NCBI RefSeq assembly: GCF_011603255.1
Contig: NZ_JAANCM010000002.1
Location: forward strand, 372,001-436,000
Direction of reading: 5' to 3'
DNA length: 64,000 nucleotides
Source: Ferranicluibacter rubi
GTDB lineage: Bacteria > Pseudomonadota > Alphaproteobacteria > Rhizobiales > Rhizobiaceae
The translations under genes and the position numbers were made by a program. Positions 8,778 to 62,249 of the stretch are shown piece by piece. The notes beneath the pieces were generated by a model. It was not told the DNA's origin. It worked only from the letters and a program-made list of their open reading frames with translations, and ran no database searches. Positions within the stretch are counted from its first letter, which is position 1. Every line of letters begins with the position of its first letter.

Positions 8778-9167
8778 ATGGCCAAGGAAGCCACACGCGT
8801 ACGTCGTCGCGAACGCAAGAATATCTCGACGGGCGTCGCCCACGTGAACTCGTCGTTCAACAACACGATGATCACCATCACCGATGCGCAGGGCAATGCC
8901 ATTGCATGGTCGTCGGCCGGCTCGAAGGGCTTCAAGGGCTCGCGCAAGTCGACCCCGTTCGCAGCGCAGATCGCCGCTGAAGATGCTGCCAAGAAGGCGC
9001 AGGAACACGGCATGAAGACGCTCGAAGTCGAAGTCACCGGCCCGGGTTCCGGCCGCGAGTCGGCTCTGCGCGCTCTGCAGGCTGCCGGCTTCATGATCAC
9101 GTCCATCCGTGACGTGACGCCGATCCCGCACAATGGTTGCCGTCCGCGCAAGAAGCGCCGCGTCTGA
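8778..9167 (+). CDS. rpsK: 30S ribosomal protein S11
   Basis: S11 (129 residues) lies on the 30S platform near the E site. The ATG at 8778 follows GTGAAAGGGTAAAC. Conserved segments are His-Val-Asn-Ser-Ser-Phe-Asn-Asn-Thr near residue 24 and the C-terminal [12 protein letters not shown]. It lies behind the unusual 233-nt structured spacer from rpsM. Confidence 0.97.
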
Positions 9168-9225
9168 TACGCACTCGTCATCAGGTCCGGCGGGAGATCG
9201 CTCTCGCCGGCGCTTCAGGGCTCCG

Positions 9226-9248
9226 TTGCCACGACTGGATGGTGGCAA
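9226..9248 (+). promoter_or_regulatory. Hairpin in the rpoA leader
   Basis: Perfect 7-bp stem TTGCCAC / GTGGCAA with a 9-nt loop, ending 19 nt before the rpoA ATG. A second, less perfect hairpin (CCGGCG/CGCCGG, about 9187-9210) lies upstream. Neither has a T-run. Confidence 0.5.
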
Positions 9249-9267
9249 TGAACGGAAGGCAAAACAT

Positions 9268-10278
9268 ATGATTCAGAAAAACTGGCAGGAACTGATCAAG
9301 CCGAACAAGGTCGAGTTCGCGTCTTCCGGTCGCACCAAGGTTAGCTTGGTCGCGGAACCGCTGGAACGTGGCTTCGGTCTGACCCTCGGCAACGCGCTGC
9401 GCCGCGTTCTTCTCTCGTCGCTCCGTGGCGCCGCCGTCACGGCCGTGCAGATCGACGGCGTTCTGCATGAGTTCTCATCGATCCCGGGTGTTCGCGAAGA
9501 TGTCACCGACATCGTCCTGAACATCAAGGAGATCGCCATCAAGATGGACGGCGACGATGCCAAGCGCATGGTCGTCCGCAAGCAGGGCCCGGGTGTGGTC
9601 ACGGCTGGCGATATCCAGACGGTCGGCGACATCGAGATCCTGAACCCGAACCATGTCATCTGCACGCTCGACGAGGGCGCGGAGATCCGCATGGAGTTCA
9701 CGGTCAACAACGGCAAGGGCTATGTTCCGGCGGATCGCAACCGTTCGGAAGATGCACCGATCGGCCTCATCCCGGTCGACAGCCTCTACTCGCCGGTCAA
9801 GAAAGTGTCCTACAAGGTGGAAAACACCCGTGAAGGCCAGGTTCTCGACTACGACAAGCTGTCCATGCAGATCGAAACCGATGGCTCGGTAACGGGCGAA
9901 GATGCCGTCGCTTTCGCGGCGCGTATCCTTCAGGACCAGCTCGGCGTCTTCGTCAACTTCGACGAACCGCAGAAGGAAGCCGAAGAAGAAGCCGTTACCG
10001 AACTGGCGTTCAACCCGGCGCTGCTGAAGAAGGTCGACGAGCTCGAGCTGTCGGTCCGTTCGGCAAACTGCCTGAAGAACGACAACATCGTCTATATCGG
10101 CGACCTCATTCAGAAGACGGAAGCCGAAATGCTCCGGACTCCGAACTTCGGCCGCAAGTCGCTGAACGAAATCAAGGAAGTTCTCGCTTCCATGGGCCTG
10201 CACCTCGGCATGGAAGTGCCCGCATGGCCGCCCGAGAACATCGAAGATCTCGCGAAGCGCTACGAAGACCAGTATTGA
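9268..10278 (+). CDS. rpoA: DNA-directed RNA polymerase subunit alpha
   Basis: Alpha subunit (336 residues), whose dimer is the platform for beta and beta' assembly. The N-terminal domain (about 1-230) contains [14 protein letters not shown]. The C-terminal domain (about 250-320) has [12 protein letters not shown], the UP-element and activator contact fold. GGAAGG precedes the ATG at 9268. Alpha operon position between rpsK and rplQ. Confidence 0.98.
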
Positions 10279-10364
10279 TCGCGGGATGATGAAACGTGTG
10301 AAGCGGTTTTCCGCTCGCATTCCGCGATTTGAACAATAGACAAGGCAGGTCCAAACTCTGCCTT
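10278..10364 (+). promoter_or_regulatory. Hairpins in the rpoA-rplQ spacer
   Basis: A long imperfect stem (ATCGCGG 10278-10284 with CCGCGAT 10322-10328, ATG/CAT inside, apical AGCGG/CCGCT) overlaps the rpoA stop. It is followed by a 7-bp hairpin AAGGCAG/CTGCCTT (10342-10364) trailed by TCCCC. Possible processing or attenuation elements. Confidence 0.45.
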
Positions 10365-55246: not shown

Positions 55247-55391
55247 CTGGTGCGTCAAACGTCTTTCGATGTGTCGGCTGATCCTGTAGGTCGGGCATCG
55301 CCTGTCCGTCGTCTGCCCGCCTCTTCATACAAGGGCCGGCCGTCCGGCGAAAGAGCCAAGCGTGCCAAAGAGATCAAAAAGGGAACAAGAC

Positions 55392-56288
55392 ATGGCCCGG
55401 TCCACACTTTCTTTGAGACGCATCGCCGCTTCGAGCGCTCTTGCCCTCGTTTTCGGCCTTGCCATCGGCCTCACCGGGGCCGGCGCTGCGACGTTGAAGC
55501 CGTTCAAGGACGATCTTTTCGGCTACGGCCGCATTCTGGAATCACGCGACGACGGAAACTGGCTGACGGTAGACTACAACGAGATGCGTGACATCAATGA
55601 CCGGGACGAGATCCCGGAGCGACGCGTCAAGCGGCCCTACGTCTCGCTGGGAATCAAGCGTGCGCAGGCGAACGAGACCGTCGATATCGGCGGGCGCGGG
55701 CTCGATGTGTTCCGGGTGGGCGCACCGCAGAATGCCGCCTTCACGGTGATCTTCATCCACGGTCGCGGCGGCGACCGGCGGCTGGGCGCAAACGACTACT
55801 CCTTTGGCGGCAACTTCAATCGCCTGAAGAACCTCGCCGTGGACAACGGCGGCGCCTATTACGCGCCAAGTGCCCGCTCCTTCGATACGGACGGCGCTGC
55901 GGATATTGCGGGGCTGATCGATGCGCTGGCGCGCCGTTCTCCCGGTCGCCCCATCATCCTGTCCTGCGCGTCGATGGGCAGCTTCCTCTGCTGGGGCGTC
56001 ACGCGCAATGCGGCGGCGGTCAAGCAGCTCTCGGGGATGATGATCATGGGCGGCGCAACCGATCCGGACTTCGGCAAGAGCGCGGCCTTCGCTAGCAAGT
56101 TGCCCATCTTTTTCAGCCATGGGAGCGCGGACGGCACTTACAAGGCGGAGGATCAGGCTGCACTTTACGGGCGTCTGAGGAAGGGCGGCTATCCCACCCG
56201 CTTCGTCCTGTTCCAGACAGGCACACATGGAACGCCGGTGAGAATGACCGACTGGCGGGATGCCATCAACTGGATCCTTTCGCGCTAA
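55392..56288 (+). CDS. Secreted alpha/beta hydrolase
   Basis: 298 residues. Signal peptide ends near Ala-Gly-Ala-Ala (30-33). The oxyanion segment His-Gly-Arg-Gly-Gly is near residue 122. The nucleophile is probably Ser in Cys-Ala-Ser-Met-Gly-Ser, where the first Gly of GxSxG is Cys. Asp in Gly-Ser-Ala-Asp-Gly and His in Gly-Thr-His-Gly-Thr complete the triad. Substrate unknown. It is divergent from parE. Confidence 0.82.
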   Translation: MARSTLSLRRIAASSALALVFGLAIGLTGAGAATLKPFKDDLFGYGRILESRDDGNWLTVDYNEMRDINDRDEIPERRVKRPYVSLGIKRAQANETVDIGGRGLDVFRVGAPQNAAFTVIFIHGRGGDRRLGANDYSFGGNFNRLKNLAVDNGGAYYAPSARSFDTDGAADIAGLIDALARRSPGRPIILSCASMGSFLCWGVTRNAAAVKQLSGMMIMGGATDPDFGKSAAFASKLPIFFSHGSADGTYKAEDQAALYGRLRKGGYPTRFVLFQTGTHGTPVRMTDWRDAINWILSR

Positions 56289-56421: not shown

Positions 56422-57864
56422 ATGGATGCGCGAACCGACACACGGCTTGTTCCGCTTTGCGTCGATTTGGATGGTACGCTTGTCGCAGCCGATACGCTGT
56501 GGGAAGGCGTCGCCGTCGTCCTGTTCCGCAATCCGCTGATGCTGTTCGCGCTCGTCCTCTGGGCGTTGCGGGGCAAAGCGCATCTGAAGCATGAGGTGGC
56601 GGCCCGGTCCGGACGCACGGGTGGCGACTGGCCCTATCGCCCCGAGGTCATGGAGCGGCTGCAGCGGGAGCGGGCGACCGGCCGCGATATCGTCCTCGTC
56701 ACCGGCGCCGCCGAACGGGTGGCGCTGGATGTCGCAGCCCATGCCGGCATCTTCACCGGCGTACTGCATTCCTCGCCCACCCACAACCTCACGAGCCATC
56801 GCAAGCGCGCGGAGCTGATCGCGCGCTATGGCGAGGCCGGGTTCGACTACATGGGCAACAGCCGGGATGACGTGGCCGTTTTCGATGCCGCCCGCACGGC
56901 CATCGTCGTCGCACCGGATCGCGCAGCGGAAACATGGCGCCGTCGCCATGGTGCCGAGCGTCTCGAGACCGGCACGATCGGCATCAAGGACACGCTGAAA
57001 TCCATCCGCGTCCACCAATGGGCGAAGAACATCCTGATCGCCGTGCCGATGGCGCTCGACCACGACATCCTCCAGCAAGAGGCGCTGATCAACACGATCG
57101 TTGCCTTCTTCGCCTTCAGCTTCCTCGCCTCTGCCGTCTACGTCATCAACGATATCTCGGACCTGACGAATGACCGCCGCCATCCGAAGAAGCGGTTCCG
57201 GCCGCTAGCGAGCGGGCGCATGTCCGTTCCGACCGGCTTGGCACTCGCCGCAAGCCTCCTCATCGCGTCCGGCGCGTTGACGCTCACAATGCCGCGCGAT
57301 TTCATCCTGACACTTGGCATTTACCTTGCAATCACGACGGCTTATACATTTTTCCTCAAGCGGAAGCTTTTGGTCGATGTCTTCACGCTGGCGGGCCTCT
57401 ACACAATCCGCATCGTCGCAGGCGCGACGGCAACCGGAACGGAGCTTTCCTTCTGGCTTCTCGCCTTCTCGATCTTCTTCTTCCTCAGCCTTGCGCTGGT
57501 GAAACGCTATGTCGAGCTGGACGAGCATGGCGGCGAAGCCGGTGCGCAGGTTCCGGGGCGCGGCTATATGCAGGTCGATTTCGAGATGGTCGGCCAGGCC
57601 GGCGTCTCCTCGGCTTTCGCCTCCGCGCTCGTTCTCGCGCTCTACATCCACAGCGTCGAGATGCAGCAGATGTACAGCATGCCGGCCGCGCTCTGGCCGC
57701 TCTGCCCCATGGTCCTCTACATGCTGCTGCGCATCTGGATGCTCGCCCGACGTGGCGCGTTGCATGAGGATCCGGTCGTTTTCATCATGCGCGACTGGCG
57801 CAGCATCGCTACCATGGCCGCAGGCGGCGTGCTGGTGATGATCGGCGCGGTCGGCATTCAATGA
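56422..57864 (+). CDS. HAD phosphatase fused to UbiA-family prenyltransferase (DPPR synthase-like)
   Basis: 480 residues. The N-terminal HAD domain (about 1-185) has Asp15-Leu-Asp-Gly-Thr and, near 145, Gly-Asn-Ser-Arg-Asp-Asp. The membrane domain (190-480) is UbiA-type; Asn243-Asp-x2-Asp247-x3-Asp251-Arg-x-His-Pro-x-Lys-Arg-x-Arg-Pro closely follows decaprenyl-phosphate 5-phosphoribose synthase. The expected reaction joins PRPP and polyprenyl phosphate; the HAD part could then remove the 5'-phosphate (inference). The stop overlaps the DprE1-like gene by 4 nt. Confidence 0.88.
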   Translation: MDARTDTRLVPLCVDLDGTLVAADTLWEGVAVVLFRNPLMLFALVLWALRGKAHLKHEVAARSGRTGGDWPYRPEVMERLQRERATGRDIVLVTGAAERVALDVAAHAGIFTGVLHSSPTHNLTSHRKRAELIARYGEAGFDYMGNSRDDVAVFDAARTAIVVAPDRAAETWRRRHGAERLETGTIGIKDTLKSIRVHQWAKNILIAVPMALDHDILQQEALINTIVAFFAFSFLASAVYVINDISDLTNDRRHPKKRFRPLASGRMSVPTGLALAASLLIASGALTLTMPRDFILTLGIYLAITTAYTFFLKRKLLVDVFTLAGLYTIRIVAGATATGTELSFWLLAFSIFFFLSLALVKRYVELDEHGGEAGAQVPGRGYMQVDFEMVGQAGVSSAFASALVLALYIHSVEMQQMYSMPAALWPLCPMVLYMLLRIWMLARRGALHEDPVVFIMRDWRSIATMAAGGVLVMIGAVGIQ

Positions 57865-59198
57865 CGGGCGCGACGAAAACACCGATGGTCGCGAATTTCG
57901 ACAGCTGGGGCCGTCTCGACACGCGCACGCGCCATGCCATCAGCCCGGATGCCTTCGAGGACGATATCCATACGGCCGCACCGGGCGGATATCTCCCCTT
58001 CGGCAACGGCCGCTCCTACGGCGACAGCTGCCATAATGATCCGGGCCTCTTGATCGACAACCGCAAGCGCGGCCGCATCCACGCCTTCGATACGGGTACC
58101 GGCATTCTCTCCGCCGAAGCCGGCGTCACTCTGTCGGCCATTCTCGCGCGCGCCGTGCCGCATCGCTTCTTTCTGCCGGTTACCCCCGGCACGGCCCATG
58201 TCACGCTCGGCGGCGCGATCGCCAACGATGTGCATGGTAAGAACCACCACGCCCGCGGAACCTTCGGAAACCATATCCGGCGCCTGACACTGCTGCGCTC
58301 CGACGGCGTAGTTCTCACATGCTCGGAAACCGAGAACCCGGAGATGTTCAGCGCCACGATCGGCGGCATGGGACTGACCGGCCTTATCCTCGATGTCGAT
58401 CTGCAGATGATGAAGGTGCCCTCGGCGCACATCCAGCAGCACGCCATCCGCTTCGACAGCCTGGACGACTATTTCGGCATGATCGACCGCGTCGATGCCG
58501 AACATGAATATTCCGTCGCCTGGATCGATCAGCTGGCCACGGGCCGCAAGGCGGGCAGGGGCATACTCCTGGCCGGCGACCATGCCGACGCCTCCTGCGA
58601 ATTGCCCGACCTGCCGCGCGGACGCACGCTTGGCATTCCCGCGACGCCGCCGTTCAGCCTTCTCAACCGCCTGACGCTGAAGGCCTTCAACGCCGCCTAT
58701 ATCCGCAAGGCGAAAGCCGGCGAGACGGTCGAGACGGTGAAATGGTCCGGCTATTTCTATCCCCTCGATGCGATCAGGAACTGGAACCGGCTCTACGGGC
58801 GCAAGGGCCTCTATCAGCACCAGAGCGTTTATCCCGTCGACGTCGCACCTGCTATCACCGCGCGGCTGATGGAAGCGGCCCGAGACGCCGGACATGGCTC
58901 CTTCCTGACGGTTCTGAAACGCTTTGGCGAACACCGTTCGCGCGGCCTGTTTTCCTTCCCGCGCCCCGGCTTCACGCTCACCCTCGATTTCGCCAACCAG
59001 GGCGAGGGCACGTTAAAGCTCCTCGATACGCTCGACCGGATCGTCGTGTCTGCTGGCGGTGCGGTCAATCCCTACAAGGATGCACGGATGAGCCCCCAGA
59101 CTTTCGACGCGTCCTTCCCGGAATGGCGGAAGCTCGAGGCGATGCGGGATCCCGCAATGATGTCGGACTTCTGGCGGCGAACCGCCATGGCACTGTGA
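57861..59198 (+). CDS. DprE1-like FAD-binding oxidoreductase
   Basis: 445 residues of the vanillyl-alcohol oxidase fold. The FAD loop Gly-Asn-Gly-Arg-Ser-Tyr-Gly-Asp is at 48-55, then Leu-Pro-Val-Thr-Pro-Gly-Thr and Gly-Gly-Ala-Ile-Ala-Asn-Asp-Val-His-Gly-Lys-Asn-His-His, all as in decaprenylphosphoryl-ribose 2'-oxidase. It would oxidise the C2' hydroxyl of a lipid-linked ribose to the keto form. Translationally coupled to the UbiA fusion, which makes its presumed substrate. Confidence 0.9.
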   Translation: MTGATKTPMVANFDSWGRLDTRTRHAISPDAFEDDIHTAAPGGYLPFGNGRSYGDSCHNDPGLLIDNRKRGRIHAFDTGTGILSAEAGVTLSAILARAVPHRFFLPVTPGTAHVTLGGAIANDVHGKNHHARGTFGNHIRRLTLLRSDGVVLTCSETENPEMFSATIGGMGLTGLILDVDLQMMKVPSAHIQQHAIRFDSLDDYFGMIDRVDAEHEYSVAWIDQLATGRKAGRGILLAGDHADASCELPDLPRGRTLGIPATPPFSLLNRLTLKAFNAAYIRKAKAGETVETVKWSGYFYPLDAIRNWNRLYGRKGLYQHQSVYPVDVAPAITARLMEAARDAGHGSFLTVLKRFGEHRSRGLFSFPRPGFTLTLDFANQGEGTLKLLDTLDRIVVSAGGAVNPYKDARMSPQTFDASFPEWRKLEAMRDPAMMSDFWRRTAMAL

Positions 59199-59311
59199 AC
59201 GACGAGATAGAATCAATTTTAATAAAAGAAATCAGCAAGTTTCACCGAATAGTGGGCTCTCTGCCGTAAGGTGGGTCCCAAGCGAGAACGAGCCCGAAAA
59301 GGGAATACGAC

Positions 59312-59752
59312 ATGAAATATTTGGCTTTCATATTGTTTACCGTGCTGACCAATGCGGCGGCACAGCTGATGCTGAAGCAGGGCATGCTGAGCCTCGGTCC
59401 TCTGACATTCTCGTCCGATACCGCGATCGCCCGCTTCTTTCAGATCCTGTTCAACCCCTGGGTCTTTGCAGGTCTTGCCACCTTCGCCATCTCGATGGTG
59501 TCGCATCTCTACGTGCTGTCGAAGGTCGAGCTTTCCTTTGCCTATCCCTTCCTCAGCCTCGCCTATGTCGCCGTGGCCATCTTCGCCTACTTCATCTTCC
59601 GCGAGGACCTGAACGCCTGGCGCATCGCTGGCATCGGCTTCATCTGCGTGGGAACCGTCCTCATTGCCCAGTCCGGCCGCTCGACGCCTGCGGAAACTGC
59701 GACGATCGAAACCCCGGCCGCAAAATCCATTCATATTGGGAGCCCGACATGA
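59312..59752 (+). CDS. Small EamA/SMR-type membrane transporter
   Basis: 146 residues with four hydrophobic helices, resembling ArnE/ArnF-type flippase subunits for undecaprenyl-phosphate sugars: Thr-Asn-Ala-Ala-Ala-Gln-Leu-Met-Leu-Lys near residue 13 and Ala-Tyr-Pro-Phe-Leu-Ser-Leu-Ala-Tyr near 77. A flipping role for the lipid-linked sugar of this cluster is inferred. The stop overlaps the epimerase ATG by 4 nt. Confidence 0.85.
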   Translation: MKYLAFILFTVLTNAAAQLMLKQGMLSLGPLTFSSDTAIARFFQILFNPWVFAGLATFAISMVSHLYVLSKVELSFAYPFLSLAYVAVAIFAYFIFREDLNAWRIAGIGFICVGTVLIAQSGRSTPAETATIETPAAKSIHIGSPT

Positions 59753-60765
59753 AACACGTCATTTTCGGAGGCGACGGCTTCGTCGGTCGCCACCTCGCCG
59801 AGCGCCTCGTCAACGAAGGCGAACAGGTTCTGATCGCCGACATCGTCAAGACCGACCTGCCGCATTACGGCCATGGCCGCGTCGGCTTCGTACACTGCGA
59901 CGTGACGGATCTCGACCAGGTCATGAAGGTCGATATCGGCCCCGAGGACATGGTCTACAATATGGCGGCAAAGATGCTGTCGCCGCTGCAGGTCCGCGCC
60001 AAACGCTGGAAATTCTTCTGGCCGGTCAACTATTACGGTGCCGAGAACATCATGAAGGCGACGGCGGCTTCGGGCGCCAATCGCCTCGTCCAGTTCACGA
60101 CCGACATGATCTACGGCCACACGGTGCAATCGCCGCAGGCGGAAGATCATCCGGTCAAGCCGCTCGGCGAATACGGCAAGTCGAAATGGGCGACGGAGCA
60201 GCTCTGCCATGCCTATCGCGAGAAGGGCATGCGGATCTCGATCTTCCGTCCGCGCCTCATCATCGGCCCGGGCCGCCTCGGCATCCTAGAAAAGCTGTTC
60301 AAGCTGATCGACGCCAACCTGCCGGTGCCGATGATCGGCTCGGGCAAGGCGCCTTACCAGTTCATCTCCGTGTTCGATTGCGCCGAAGCCGCGCGTCTCG
60401 CCTGGAAGGGCGGTGTGCCGAACGAAGCCTATAACCTCGGTTCCGACAATCCGCCCTCCGTGCGCCAGCTTCTGGGCGGGCTGATCAAGCATGCCGGTTC
60501 CAAATCCATCCTGATCCCCACGCCGGGTTTTGCCGTCAAGGCGACGCTGGCCGCCTTCGATGCGATCAACCTGCCGATCATGGACCCGGAACAGTACCTG
60601 ATCGCCGACGAGATGTGCGTTCGCGAAACCGGCAAGCTGAAGCAGGAGCTCGGCTGGAAGGCCCAGTTCAACGACGGCGCCATGCTGATCGCCGCCTACG
60701 ACGAATACCGCGCGAAGAAATCCAAAGGCACCGTCGGCACGCCCGCCGCCCTGCCGGCCGAATAA
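59749..60765 (+). CDS. NAD-dependent epimerase/dehydratase (extended SDR)
   Basis: 338 residues. NAD-binding Gly-Gly-Asp-Gly-Phe-Val-Gly at 7-13, the catalytic Tyr-Gly-Lys-Ser-Lys near residue 144-148, and Phe-Arg-Pro-Arg-Leu-Ile-Ile-Gly-Pro-Gly. It resembles sugar-nucleotide or lipid-linked sugar epimerases. In this cluster it may reduce or epimerise the keto-pentose, although DprE2 enzymes are usually shorter classical SDRs. Confidence 0.88.
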   Translation: MKHVIFGGDGFVGRHLAERLVNEGEQVLIADIVKTDLPHYGHGRVGFVHCDVTDLDQVMKVDIGPEDMVYNMAAKMLSPLQVRAKRWKFFWPVNYYGAENIMKATAASGANRLVQFTTDMIYGHTVQSPQAEDHPVKPLGEYGKSKWATEQLCHAYREKGMRISIFRPRLIIGPGRLGILEKLFKLIDANLPVPMIGSGKAPYQFISVFDCAEAARLAWKGGVPNEAYNLGSDNPPSVRQLLGGLIKHAGSKSILIPTPGFAVKATLAAFDAINLPIMDPEQYLIADEMCVRETGKLKQELGWKAQFNDGAMLIAAYDEYRAKKSKGTVGTPAALPAE

Positions 60766-60779
60766 GAGGGAACGACAAG

Positions 60780-62249
60780 ATGCTCGATACGCCCGCCCGT
60801 ATCCTCGTTGACTCCACAGTCGTCGAAGGCCCGCAGCCCGTCCGCAAAGCGGTTGCCAAGCCCGACCTCCTCACGGTCGAGGACGCCAAGGCCCTGACCG
60901 TTCCGGAAATGACGACCCTGTTCAAGGATCACGTCAATCCCGGCCAGCTCCACTTCATGAAGCTGCTCGGCTTCCACAAGGTGAAGATCGAGAGCGCCGA
61001 GGGGATGTACTACACCGACCAGAACGGCCGGAAGATCCTCGATTTCTTCGGCGGTTTCGGTTCGCTCGCCTTTGGCCACAACCACCCGCGTCTGCTCGAA
61101 GCCCGCAAGCGCTTTCAGGACGAGAACCGCCACGAGATCGCCATCGCCTTCATGTCGCAATATGCGGCAGCCTTCGCGAAGAATCTCGCGACCATTTCGC
61201 CCGGTGACCTCGACATGGTGTTCCTCGGCTCGTCCGGCTCCGAGGTCATGGAAGCCGCCGTCAAGCTTGCCGAGCGCGCTGCGGGCCCGAAGCGGCCGAA
61301 GGTCGTCTATGCCGAGAATTCTTTCCACGGCAAGACGAAGGGCGTGCTGAACATCACCGACGGCGCTCTCTACCGGGCTGATTTCGCGGTCTCGGGAAAC
61401 ACCGTCCGCGTTCCCTTCGGCAACATCCAGGCGATCGAGAACGCCTTCCGGGCCGATCCGCAGATCGGGGCGATCGTTCTGGAAACCATCCAGGGCGGCG
61501 GCGGTATCATCCGCGCACCCGATGGCTTCTGGAAGGAGCTCCGCGCCCTTTGCGACCGCTACGGCGTCGTCTGGGTCGCGGACGAGGTCCAGTGCGGTTA
61601 CGGCCGCTCGGGCCGCTTCTTCGCCTTCGAGCATGAGAATGTGGTGCCCGACATCACGGCGCTTGCCAAGTCGCTCGGCGGCGGCAAGGCGGCCGTGGGC
61701 GCCATGATCGCCCGGCGCGAGATCTACATGAAGGCTTATGGCACGCCGAAGACGGCGATGATCCACGCGATGGCGACGTTCGGCGGCATGGGCGAGGCCT
61801 GCGTCACCGCCATCGAGGCGCTGAACATCATGTATGACGACGGCTTGATCGATAACGCGGCAGAGCAGGGCGCCTACCTGCTCGCCCGCCTCGATGCGCT
61901 GCGCGAGAAGTACCCGAAGATCATCAAGGAGGTTCGCGGGCAGGGGCTCATGGTGGGGCTCGAGTTCCAGGACTTCAGCCAGACGATGCCGCTGGTGCTG
62001 CGCCCGGTCATCGGCATGCTCGACGACAAGCTCAAGGGCTCGCTCTCCGGCTTCATCGGCGCGCTGCTGCTGCGGGACTACGACACACTCGTCGCCTTCA
62101 CCGAATACAACCGCAACGTCATCCGGCTGGAGCCGCCGCTGATCTGCGAACGCGCCCATGTAGACCAGTTCGTCGATGCGCTCGACGATCTCCTCGGCCG
62201 CGGCATCATTCGGATCGTCAAGGATTTCGTCGGCAGCCAGATGGGCTGA
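60780..62249 (+). CDS. Class III PLP-dependent aminotransferase
   Basis: 489 residues, fold type I. Gly-Ser-Ser-Gly-Ser-Glu at 150-155 binds PLP phosphate, Asp268 is in [10 protein letters not shown], and the Schiff-base lysine is Lys297 (Ala-Lys-Ser-Leu-Gly-Gly-Gly). An N-terminal extension of about 45 residues precedes the domain. Substrate is open: the usual class III donors are omega-amino acids, but the cluster suggests a keto-sugar acceptor. GAGGGAACGACAAG precedes ATG 60780. Confidence 0.88.

Follow-up and report, generated by a model that had tools for sequence, protein, structure and literature searches.

A rhizobial five-gene cassette that may make a lipid-linked amino-pentofuranose

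Polyprenyl-phosphoryl ribofuranose is the product of a HAD-UbiA protein, and a donor of this kind is the substrate of a GT-C enzyme, as Kelly et al. 2024 demonstrated (PMC11127046). The pentofuranose systems presented there have three components, a HAD-UbiA synthase, a flippase and a GT-C enzyme; Citrobacter youngae O1/O2 has ORF15, ORF14, ORF12 (GT136) and ORF13, a GalE-like short-chain dehydrogenase/reductase (SDR) that decides for xylofuranose, and homologues of DprE1 and DprE2 occur in the systems for arabinofuranose (PMC11127046). The same source gives the mycobacterial decaprenylphosphoryl-arabinose pathway as Rv3806c, Rv3807c, DprE1, DprE2 and Rv3789 (PMC11127046), and among rhizobia the noeCHOP genes of Azorhizobium, which serve the arabinosylation of Nod factors, are thought, in the passages cited here, to make a D-arabinose precursor (PMC2443382). 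The word 'aminotransferase' is absent from the main text of PMC11127046, and our searches of the open-licence literature showed no aminated pentofuranose-lipid pathway, which is weak evidence of absence. Here we analyse a cluster of five genes, among them a class III aminotransferase (AT), in a 64,000-nucleotide stretch of the 5.47 Mb genome of Ferranicluibacter rubi (the window, G000:C22:372001-436000; G, C and L label genomes, contigs and loci throughout).

Domain content, gene order and distribution lead us to propose, with a probability of roughly 60%, that the proteins of this cluster synthesise an amino-pentofuranose linked to polyprenyl phosphate and flip it across the membrane. The original prediction had held that no described pathway has this combination of genes, which is too strong, the three-component pentofuranose pathway being close (PMC11127046).

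A five-gene cassette and its conservation

The cluster occupies 56422-62249, its five open reading frames contiguous and all on the + strand: a HAD-UbiA synthase (56422-57864, 480 aa), a DprE1-like oxidase dependent on flavin adenine dinucleotide (57861-59198, 445 aa), a small membrane protein of the SMR/EamA type (59312-59752, 146 aa), an extended SDR (59749-60765, 338 aa) and the AT (60780-62249, 489 aa). Contiguity, common orientation and 4-nt overlaps at two joints (57861-57864 and 59749-59752) are as first predicted. A longer AT frame, from a GTG at 60615, was set aside in favour of the ATG at 60780, because the latter stands 14 bases past the SDR stop. Together the five proteins give above-cut-off Pfam matches to UbiA and HAD, FAD_binding_4, EamA, Epimerase and Aminotran_3; a promoter and terminator scan returned no more sites than shuffled sequence did.

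Scanning a genome collection with an AT alignment confirmed 467 stretches, and the best 80 of these 467, which are the query's nearest relatives and hence a biased sample, form our named loci. They come from Rhizobium, Pararhizobium, Ensifer, Sinorhizobium, Mesorhizobium, Nitratireductor, Tianweitania and other Rhizobiales/Hyphomicrobiales, and the closest named AT among the matches listed is that of Rhizobium sp. PP-CC-3A-592, at 98% identity. The order UbiA-DprE1-SMR-SDR-AT is complete on a single strand in 78 of the 80, and the remaining two (L078 and L095) are truncated by a contig end. Two neighbourhoods predominate: in Rhizobium and Ensifer, as in the window, the cassette is flanked by parE and tpiA and follows a gene for an alpha/beta-hydrolase, and in Mesorhizobium and Nitratireductor it is flanked by an MscS-type gene and a dehydrogenase gene.

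We then profiled the family across 61 genera, one genome each, with a search threshold for each gene. The AT was found in 31, DprE1 in 33, the SDR in 30 and HAD-UbiA in 34, with none of the set in 27; each of the 31 genomes with the AT carries DprE1 and HAD-UbiA as well, 30 of them also have the SDR, and DprE1 lies within 4 kb of the AT in 28. The original prediction was staked on the genes occurring together elsewhere, and they do, in 78 of 80 loci and with DprE1 and UbiA in all 31 AT genera. Two genomes depart from the standard layout: in G019 a search at E <= 1e-50 finds no such SDR, with UbiA, DprE1, SMR and AT still together, and G046 (regions L040 and L041) carries SMR-SDR-AT at the parE locus and UbiA-DprE1 at a separate site, so that SMR-SDR-AT behaves like a movable module. 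Regions L036, L038 and L040 are without DprE1.

Beyond the family, a search of 288 further genomes sampled from the class, in which up to five candidates were scored in each, yielded DprE1 in 29 and this type of AT in one. That genome, G265, belongs to a different family and carries all five genes together (locus L034) in the order SMR-SDR-UbiA-DprE1-AT, where the AT immediately follows DprE1 instead of the SDR; the UbiA match there has no HAD part. An AT match in G227 was rejected as an ordinary paralogue (34% identity, on a different contig from its DprE1). Among the genomes searched, the AT thus occurs only where DprE1 does (31/31 in the family, 1/1 outside). Conservation of the five genes is far above chance, gene order and co-occurrence across genera rule out chance neighbours, and the five genes are an inherited unit.

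Two neighbouring genes were also noted. The alpha/beta-hydrolase-like gene upstream of the cluster (55362-56288), whose product gave no above-cut-off match in a Pfam search, has a counterpart near the cluster in 21 of the 80 loci, and a dxs-like gene, named by eye, lies near UbiA-DprE1 in two alphaproteobacteria of different families (L034:904-2823 and L049:3085-5007).

An aminotransferase in the place of DprE2

Domain and structure matches support the earlier assignment of these genes, by homology, to a putative pathway for a polyprenyl-linked pentose donor. The synthase matches Pfam UbiA (5e-23) and HAD (5e-7), passes the NCBIfam PRK08238 cut-off (582 bits against 351) and matches the solved decaprenyl-phosphate phosphoribosyltransferase 8j8j at E 2e-29. 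It carries both the HAD and the UbiA phosphoribosyltransferase domains that mark three-component systems; D15, D17, N243, D244, D247 and D251 are shared by all, or all but one, of those among 27 selected rows that have a residue at the position, and the spacing of N243/D244/D247/D251 equals that of N247/D248/D251/D255 in Citrobacter ORF15. We propose that it is a HAD phosphatase fused to a UbiA-type polyprenyl-phosphate phosphoribosyltransferase (PPPRS-like), whose product would be polyprenyl-P-ribofuranose. The oxidase matches solved DprE1 over residues 41-440 (E 4e-70) and counts by NCBIfam as a relative rather than a member of that family, its 351 bits falling short of the 500-bit cut-off for the DprE1 equivalog (NF053785). 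Its K406-D407 aligns with the KDSR stretch of DprE1 and is kept in 28 selected rows, and its threonine 374 aligns with the cysteine site of mycobacterial DprE1, presumably Cys387, the cysteine bound by benzothiazinones. Its proposed reaction is the oxidation of C2 of the lipid-linked ribofuranose to a ketone.

The AT matches Aminotran_3 at 3e-83, and its nearest solved chains are 4ppm, which we take to be a PigE-type enzyme, and the putrescine aminotransferase 4uox. K297 and D268 are invariant in nine alignment rows, and K297 aligns with a lysine of 4uox that we take to be the one binding pyridoxal phosphate; domain and lysine together identify a class III aminotransferase. As its substrate we propose the 2-keto-pentose on polyprenyl phosphate.

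What points to this substrate is the company that DprE1 keeps where the AT is missing. Thirty searched genomes have DprE1 without this AT (28 outside the family, and G045 and G047 within it), and we inspected the DprE1 regions of nine of them (L043-L051). A DprE2-type classic SDR directly follows DprE1 in eight of the nine, that of L049 being found by tblastn only; in the ninth, L043 (G045:C3), a lone open cluster-type DprE1 (9015-10358) stands between an alpha/beta-hydrolase gene and tpiA. (G045 also has a UbiA match, at 39% identity, on a different contig from its DprE1.) Conversely, a search with a DprE2 profile, limited to 44 scored candidates in each genome, found none at E <= 1e-35 in the 31 AT genomes, our own included, and the same profile recovers the DprE2 gene of G047, itself part of the profile. 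The gene calls of the 80 named AT loci include none either, nor do the 12.6 kb of L034 over which G265 was checked. The AT occupies the place of DprE2. The 2-keto-pentose is therefore most likely transaminated, which would give a polyprenyl-phosphoryl 2-amino-2-deoxy-pentofuranose for the ArnE/F-like protein to flip; an ordinary arabinose pathway was set aside as the leading interpretation, no DprE2 having been found in the 31 AT genomes at that threshold and search depth.

A tree of 28 selected DprE1 proteins, of which AT genomes supplied 20 (rows of 330 aa or less were dropped, and L035 and L049 are absent), places the DprE1s of AT genomes in three separate positions among DprE2-linked DprE1s: a rhizobial clade, L034 together with L037 (100/100), and L039. 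The L034 DprE1 adjoins its AT. Those of L037 and L039 do not, and for that reason we infer, rather than observe, that they serve the AT.

The choice of flippase candidate follows the same division. The SMR protein, proposed from its sequence to be the flippase subunit for the lipid-linked sugar, finds its best NCBIfam matches in ArnF (2e-15, 57.3 bits against a cut-off of 99) and ArnE (2e-10, 41.2 bits against 92), below both equivalog cut-offs, and ArnF is the best match of all five SMR relatives tested. Flippase type tracks the partner: AT clusters have the ArnF-like protein, and four of the eight DprE2 clusters have GtrA, the search for GtrA in the other four being non-exhaustive.

The extended SDR is harder to place. 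It matches Pfam Epimerase at 3e-35, and its GxxGxxG (7-13) and YxxxK (142-146) align with GalE-type structures and are kept in 19 selected rows; by these motifs, a glycine-rich NAD site and YxxxK, it fits the GalE-like type of SDR to which ORF13 belongs. A hopanoid role (HpnA/HpnO) was considered and rejected: HpnA is the top NCBIfam match, at 61.6 bits, far under the cut-off of 367.65. The protein could be an auxiliary epimerase, perhaps acting at C3, a tentative role that fits because the SDR is absent in G019.

Might the extended SDR instead substitute for DprE2, reducing the 2-ketone, so that the donor is ordinary arabinofuranose and the AT acts elsewhere in the same glycan? SDRs are capable of ketone reduction, and all but one of the 31 AT genomes carry this SDR, DprE2 having been detected in none. 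Yet it is an extended, GalE-like enzyme, whereas the DprE2-type loci inspected use a classic SDR of ~250 aa; G019 has the AT without it; in G265 DprE1 is followed by the AT, not by the SDR; and the ArnF-like flippase tracks the AT. We consider this explanation unlikely. The original prediction had offered an arabinose-like sugar or a 2-amino-pentose: amination is now favoured, by the AT at DprE2's place and by the SDR-less G019, and plain arabinose disfavoured.

More doubtful still is a scheme in which the SDR oxidises C3 or C5 and the AT aminates there, making the product a 3- or 5-amino-pentose. The adjacency of SDR and AT in 79 of the 80 named loci speaks for it, as do the separation of SDR, AT and SMR from UbiA-DprE1 in G046 and the nearest AT relatives, which we take to act on aldehydes; it is countered by G019, where the AT occurs without the SDR, and by the constant company of AT and DprE1 (31/31 in the family), which would leave DprE1 no clear role. 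That the AT does a separate metabolic job such as polyamine metabolism and is merely co-transcribed is quite improbable, because, for all its sequence relation to putrescine aminotransferase, it co-occurs exactly with DprE1, UbiA and the glycosyltransferase families described below, and because in L034, from outside the family, the five genes stay together though rearranged.

Candidate glycosyltransferases

The original prediction saw no glycosyltransferase that would use the donor. For the window this holds, in that a crude hydropathy scan of stop-to-stop frames with at least five hydrophobic segments gave six frames and, by eye, no glycosyltransferase among them; for the genome it does not, there being a candidate on another contig. 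The search for a co-occurring GT-C enzyme that had been suggested brought to light two candidate families, which between them cover all 31 AT genomes (four genomes have both) and one of which has a predicted GT-C fold.

The first, cluster 7, is a protein of ~400 aa with many hydrophobic segments that directly follows the AT on the same strand in 54 of the 80 named loci. The family has no Pfam match and an invariant NWD near residue 62. Its AlphaFold model (mean pLDDT 88.6) found nothing below E 0.001 when compared with the PDB by Foldseek, the best match being ArnT at 0.025; a second structure comparison gave ALG12 at Z 17.6 and ArnT (5f15) at Z 17.4, with a root-mean-square deviation of 4.5 over 291 residues. 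Rows 1-46 of that comparison, all at Z >= 10.4, are GT-C enzymes by title or, for some, proteins whose fold we take to be GT-C, and the next row is WaaL, at Z 6.2. We read the model as a GT-C fold, on the strength of the second comparison because Foldseek alone is weak. Cluster 7 occurs in 13 of the 61 genera, all with the AT and 11 with the two genes side by side; in our own genome the family has no match at E <= 0.1.

The second family, c38, comprises proteins of ~570 aa with a WD near residue 55. It is present in 22 AT genomes, in 13 of which the AT is no more than 2.1 kb away, and is the only one of the two families in our own genome, where its member (G000:C42:154165-155931) lies between ppiD-like and glmU-like genes, both named by eye. 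We regard c38 as a glycosyltransferase candidate, putatively of the GT-C type. Within AT genomes the two families tend to exclude each other, and a possible sequence homology between them was rejected, hhalign giving a probability of 0.1 and E 0.61 with an alignment only at the WD motif.

The 30 AT-less genera gave a single, weak match to either family, in G033 (4.8e-29). There, at 8545-12071 of L152 (G033:C1), a c38-like multi-transmembrane protein (26% identity to our c38 protein), a UbiA-type synthase and GtrA stand in a row; the synthase matches that of the window over residues 8-473, its HAD part falling under the Pfam cut-off. In a genome without DprE1 and AT, this looks like the plain three-component layout.

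Other genes near these loci deserve mention. In G265, on the strand opposite to the five genes and upstream of them, L034:2861-4462 encodes a multi-transmembrane protein with a WD after the first helix and no Pfam match, possibly a third GT-C candidate. A PIG-L-like deacetylase and a GNAT acyltransferase form a pair near the glycosyltransferase candidate in L073, L080 and L149, the L073 pair being named through its clustering with that of L080; such pairs would suit an amino sugar and are only suggestive. Directly after the glycosyltransferase gene, 36 of the 80 loci carry a gene of a single cluster, and the member tested, L083:11682-12440, is an FkbM-type methyltransferase.

The proposed pathway and its relation to known systems

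Taken in order, the steps would run as follows. By homology, HAD-UbiA would move phosphoribose from phosphoribosyl pyrophosphate onto polyprenyl phosphate and remove the 5-phosphate, and the DprE1-like oxidase would form the 2-ketone. The gene exchange suggests that the AT then makes a 2-amino-2-deoxy-pentofuranose, replacing the DprE2 reduction to arabinose; amination and its position are steps that we infer. More tentatively, the GalE-like SDR might set the configuration at a further carbon, possibly C3, in the way that ORF13 decides for xylofuranose in Citrobacter, and the ArnE/F-like SMR protein would, by homology, carry the donor to the periplasm. There a multi-transmembrane glycosyltransferase, to which co-occurrence and, for one family, also the fold point, would pass the sugar to an acceptor in the envelope, a part for which the c38 protein is the candidate in the window's genome. 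For the fuller account, in which the AT replaced DprE2 on the DprE1 ketone more than once, with an ArnF-like flippase, two interchangeable GT-C families and an aminopentofuranose on a rhizobial envelope glycan, we see the balance as even.

A number of points weigh against the proposal. Some concern the enzymes: PigE-type enzymes and putrescine aminotransferase act on terminal amines and aldehydes, and because these are the AT's nearest solved relatives a ring ketone would be a substrate new to this branch; and the SDR has only a tentative role. Others concern the distribution. G045 has a cluster-type DprE1 with neither AT nor detected DprE2; L051, counted as AT-less, carries a class III aminotransferase of 29% identity ~8 kb from DprE1; and in G037, G042 and G046 DprE1 and the AT are at separate places, the DprE1s of G037 and G042 coming from another clade, so that in these three genomes DprE1 may serve the AT at a distance. 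The 61 genera share ancestry, and Fisher values across them are descriptive only and overstate independence, while the depths of the DprE2 search and of the AT and DprE1 searches in the 288 class genomes would allow a gene to be missed. As to the glycosyltransferases, both profiles were built from loci beside the AT, which favours the recovery of AT-linked members. The c38 family has no Pfam match, and its predicted model, from two sequences, reached a pLDDT of 37; because this model is unusable, a GT-C nature for c38 rests on motif, place and co-occurrence. The PIG-L scores, 28.6 and 22 bits, straddle the Pfam cut-off of 28.2.

If the proposal of a lipid-linked amino-pentofuranose is right, an amino sugar joins ribose, xylose and arabinose in the pathway of lipid-linked pentofuranoses, with an envelope sugar, possibly cationic, to be expected in Mesorhizobium, Ensifer and Rhizobium. 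Users of DprE1 could then be separated into likely arabinose makers, with DprE2, and likely amine makers, with the AT, and the analysis names gene targets, including two putative glycosyltransferase families without a Pfam match.

Several known systems share parts of this design. The 4-amino-4-deoxy-arabinose (Ara4N) modification of lipid A (ArnA-F, ArnT) is alike in that ArnF and ArnE are the best matches of the SMR protein, the GT-C protein of the relatives is modelled with the ArnT fold, and the product would be a lipid-linked aminopentose; it is unlike in that Ara4N is made from UDP-glucuronic acid, with ArnB belonging to another aminotransferase family than the AT, whereas here the sugar would be made on the lipid from phosphoribosyl pyrophosphate and there is one SMR gene. 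With the mycobacterial decaprenylphosphoryl-arabinose pathway the cluster shares a UbiA-type synthase and DprE1, but here the HAD domain is fused to the synthase, no DprE2 was found, and an aminotransferase and an extended SDR are present. The noeCHOP genes are likewise rhizobial genes, credited with the same kind of D-arabinose precursor; they lie in an inducible nod operon, in contrast to the chromosomal parE-tpiA neighbourhood of our cluster, and the passages on them cited here mention no aminotransferase (PMC2443382). The three-component systems come closest, with a HAD domain fused to a UbiA-type synthase at the same catalytic spacing, a flippase candidate, a GT-C partner (here by fold, and in the relatives only) and an auxiliary GalE-like SDR or DprE1. 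The rhizobial cluster differs from them in its added class III aminotransferase, in DprE1 without DprE2, in a flippase candidate that is an ArnF-like SMR protein and not a MATE protein, and in a glycosyltransferase candidate that in this genome lies on another contig. The proposed aminated form would accordingly be a variation on the known three-component pentofuranose pathway and not a separate kind.

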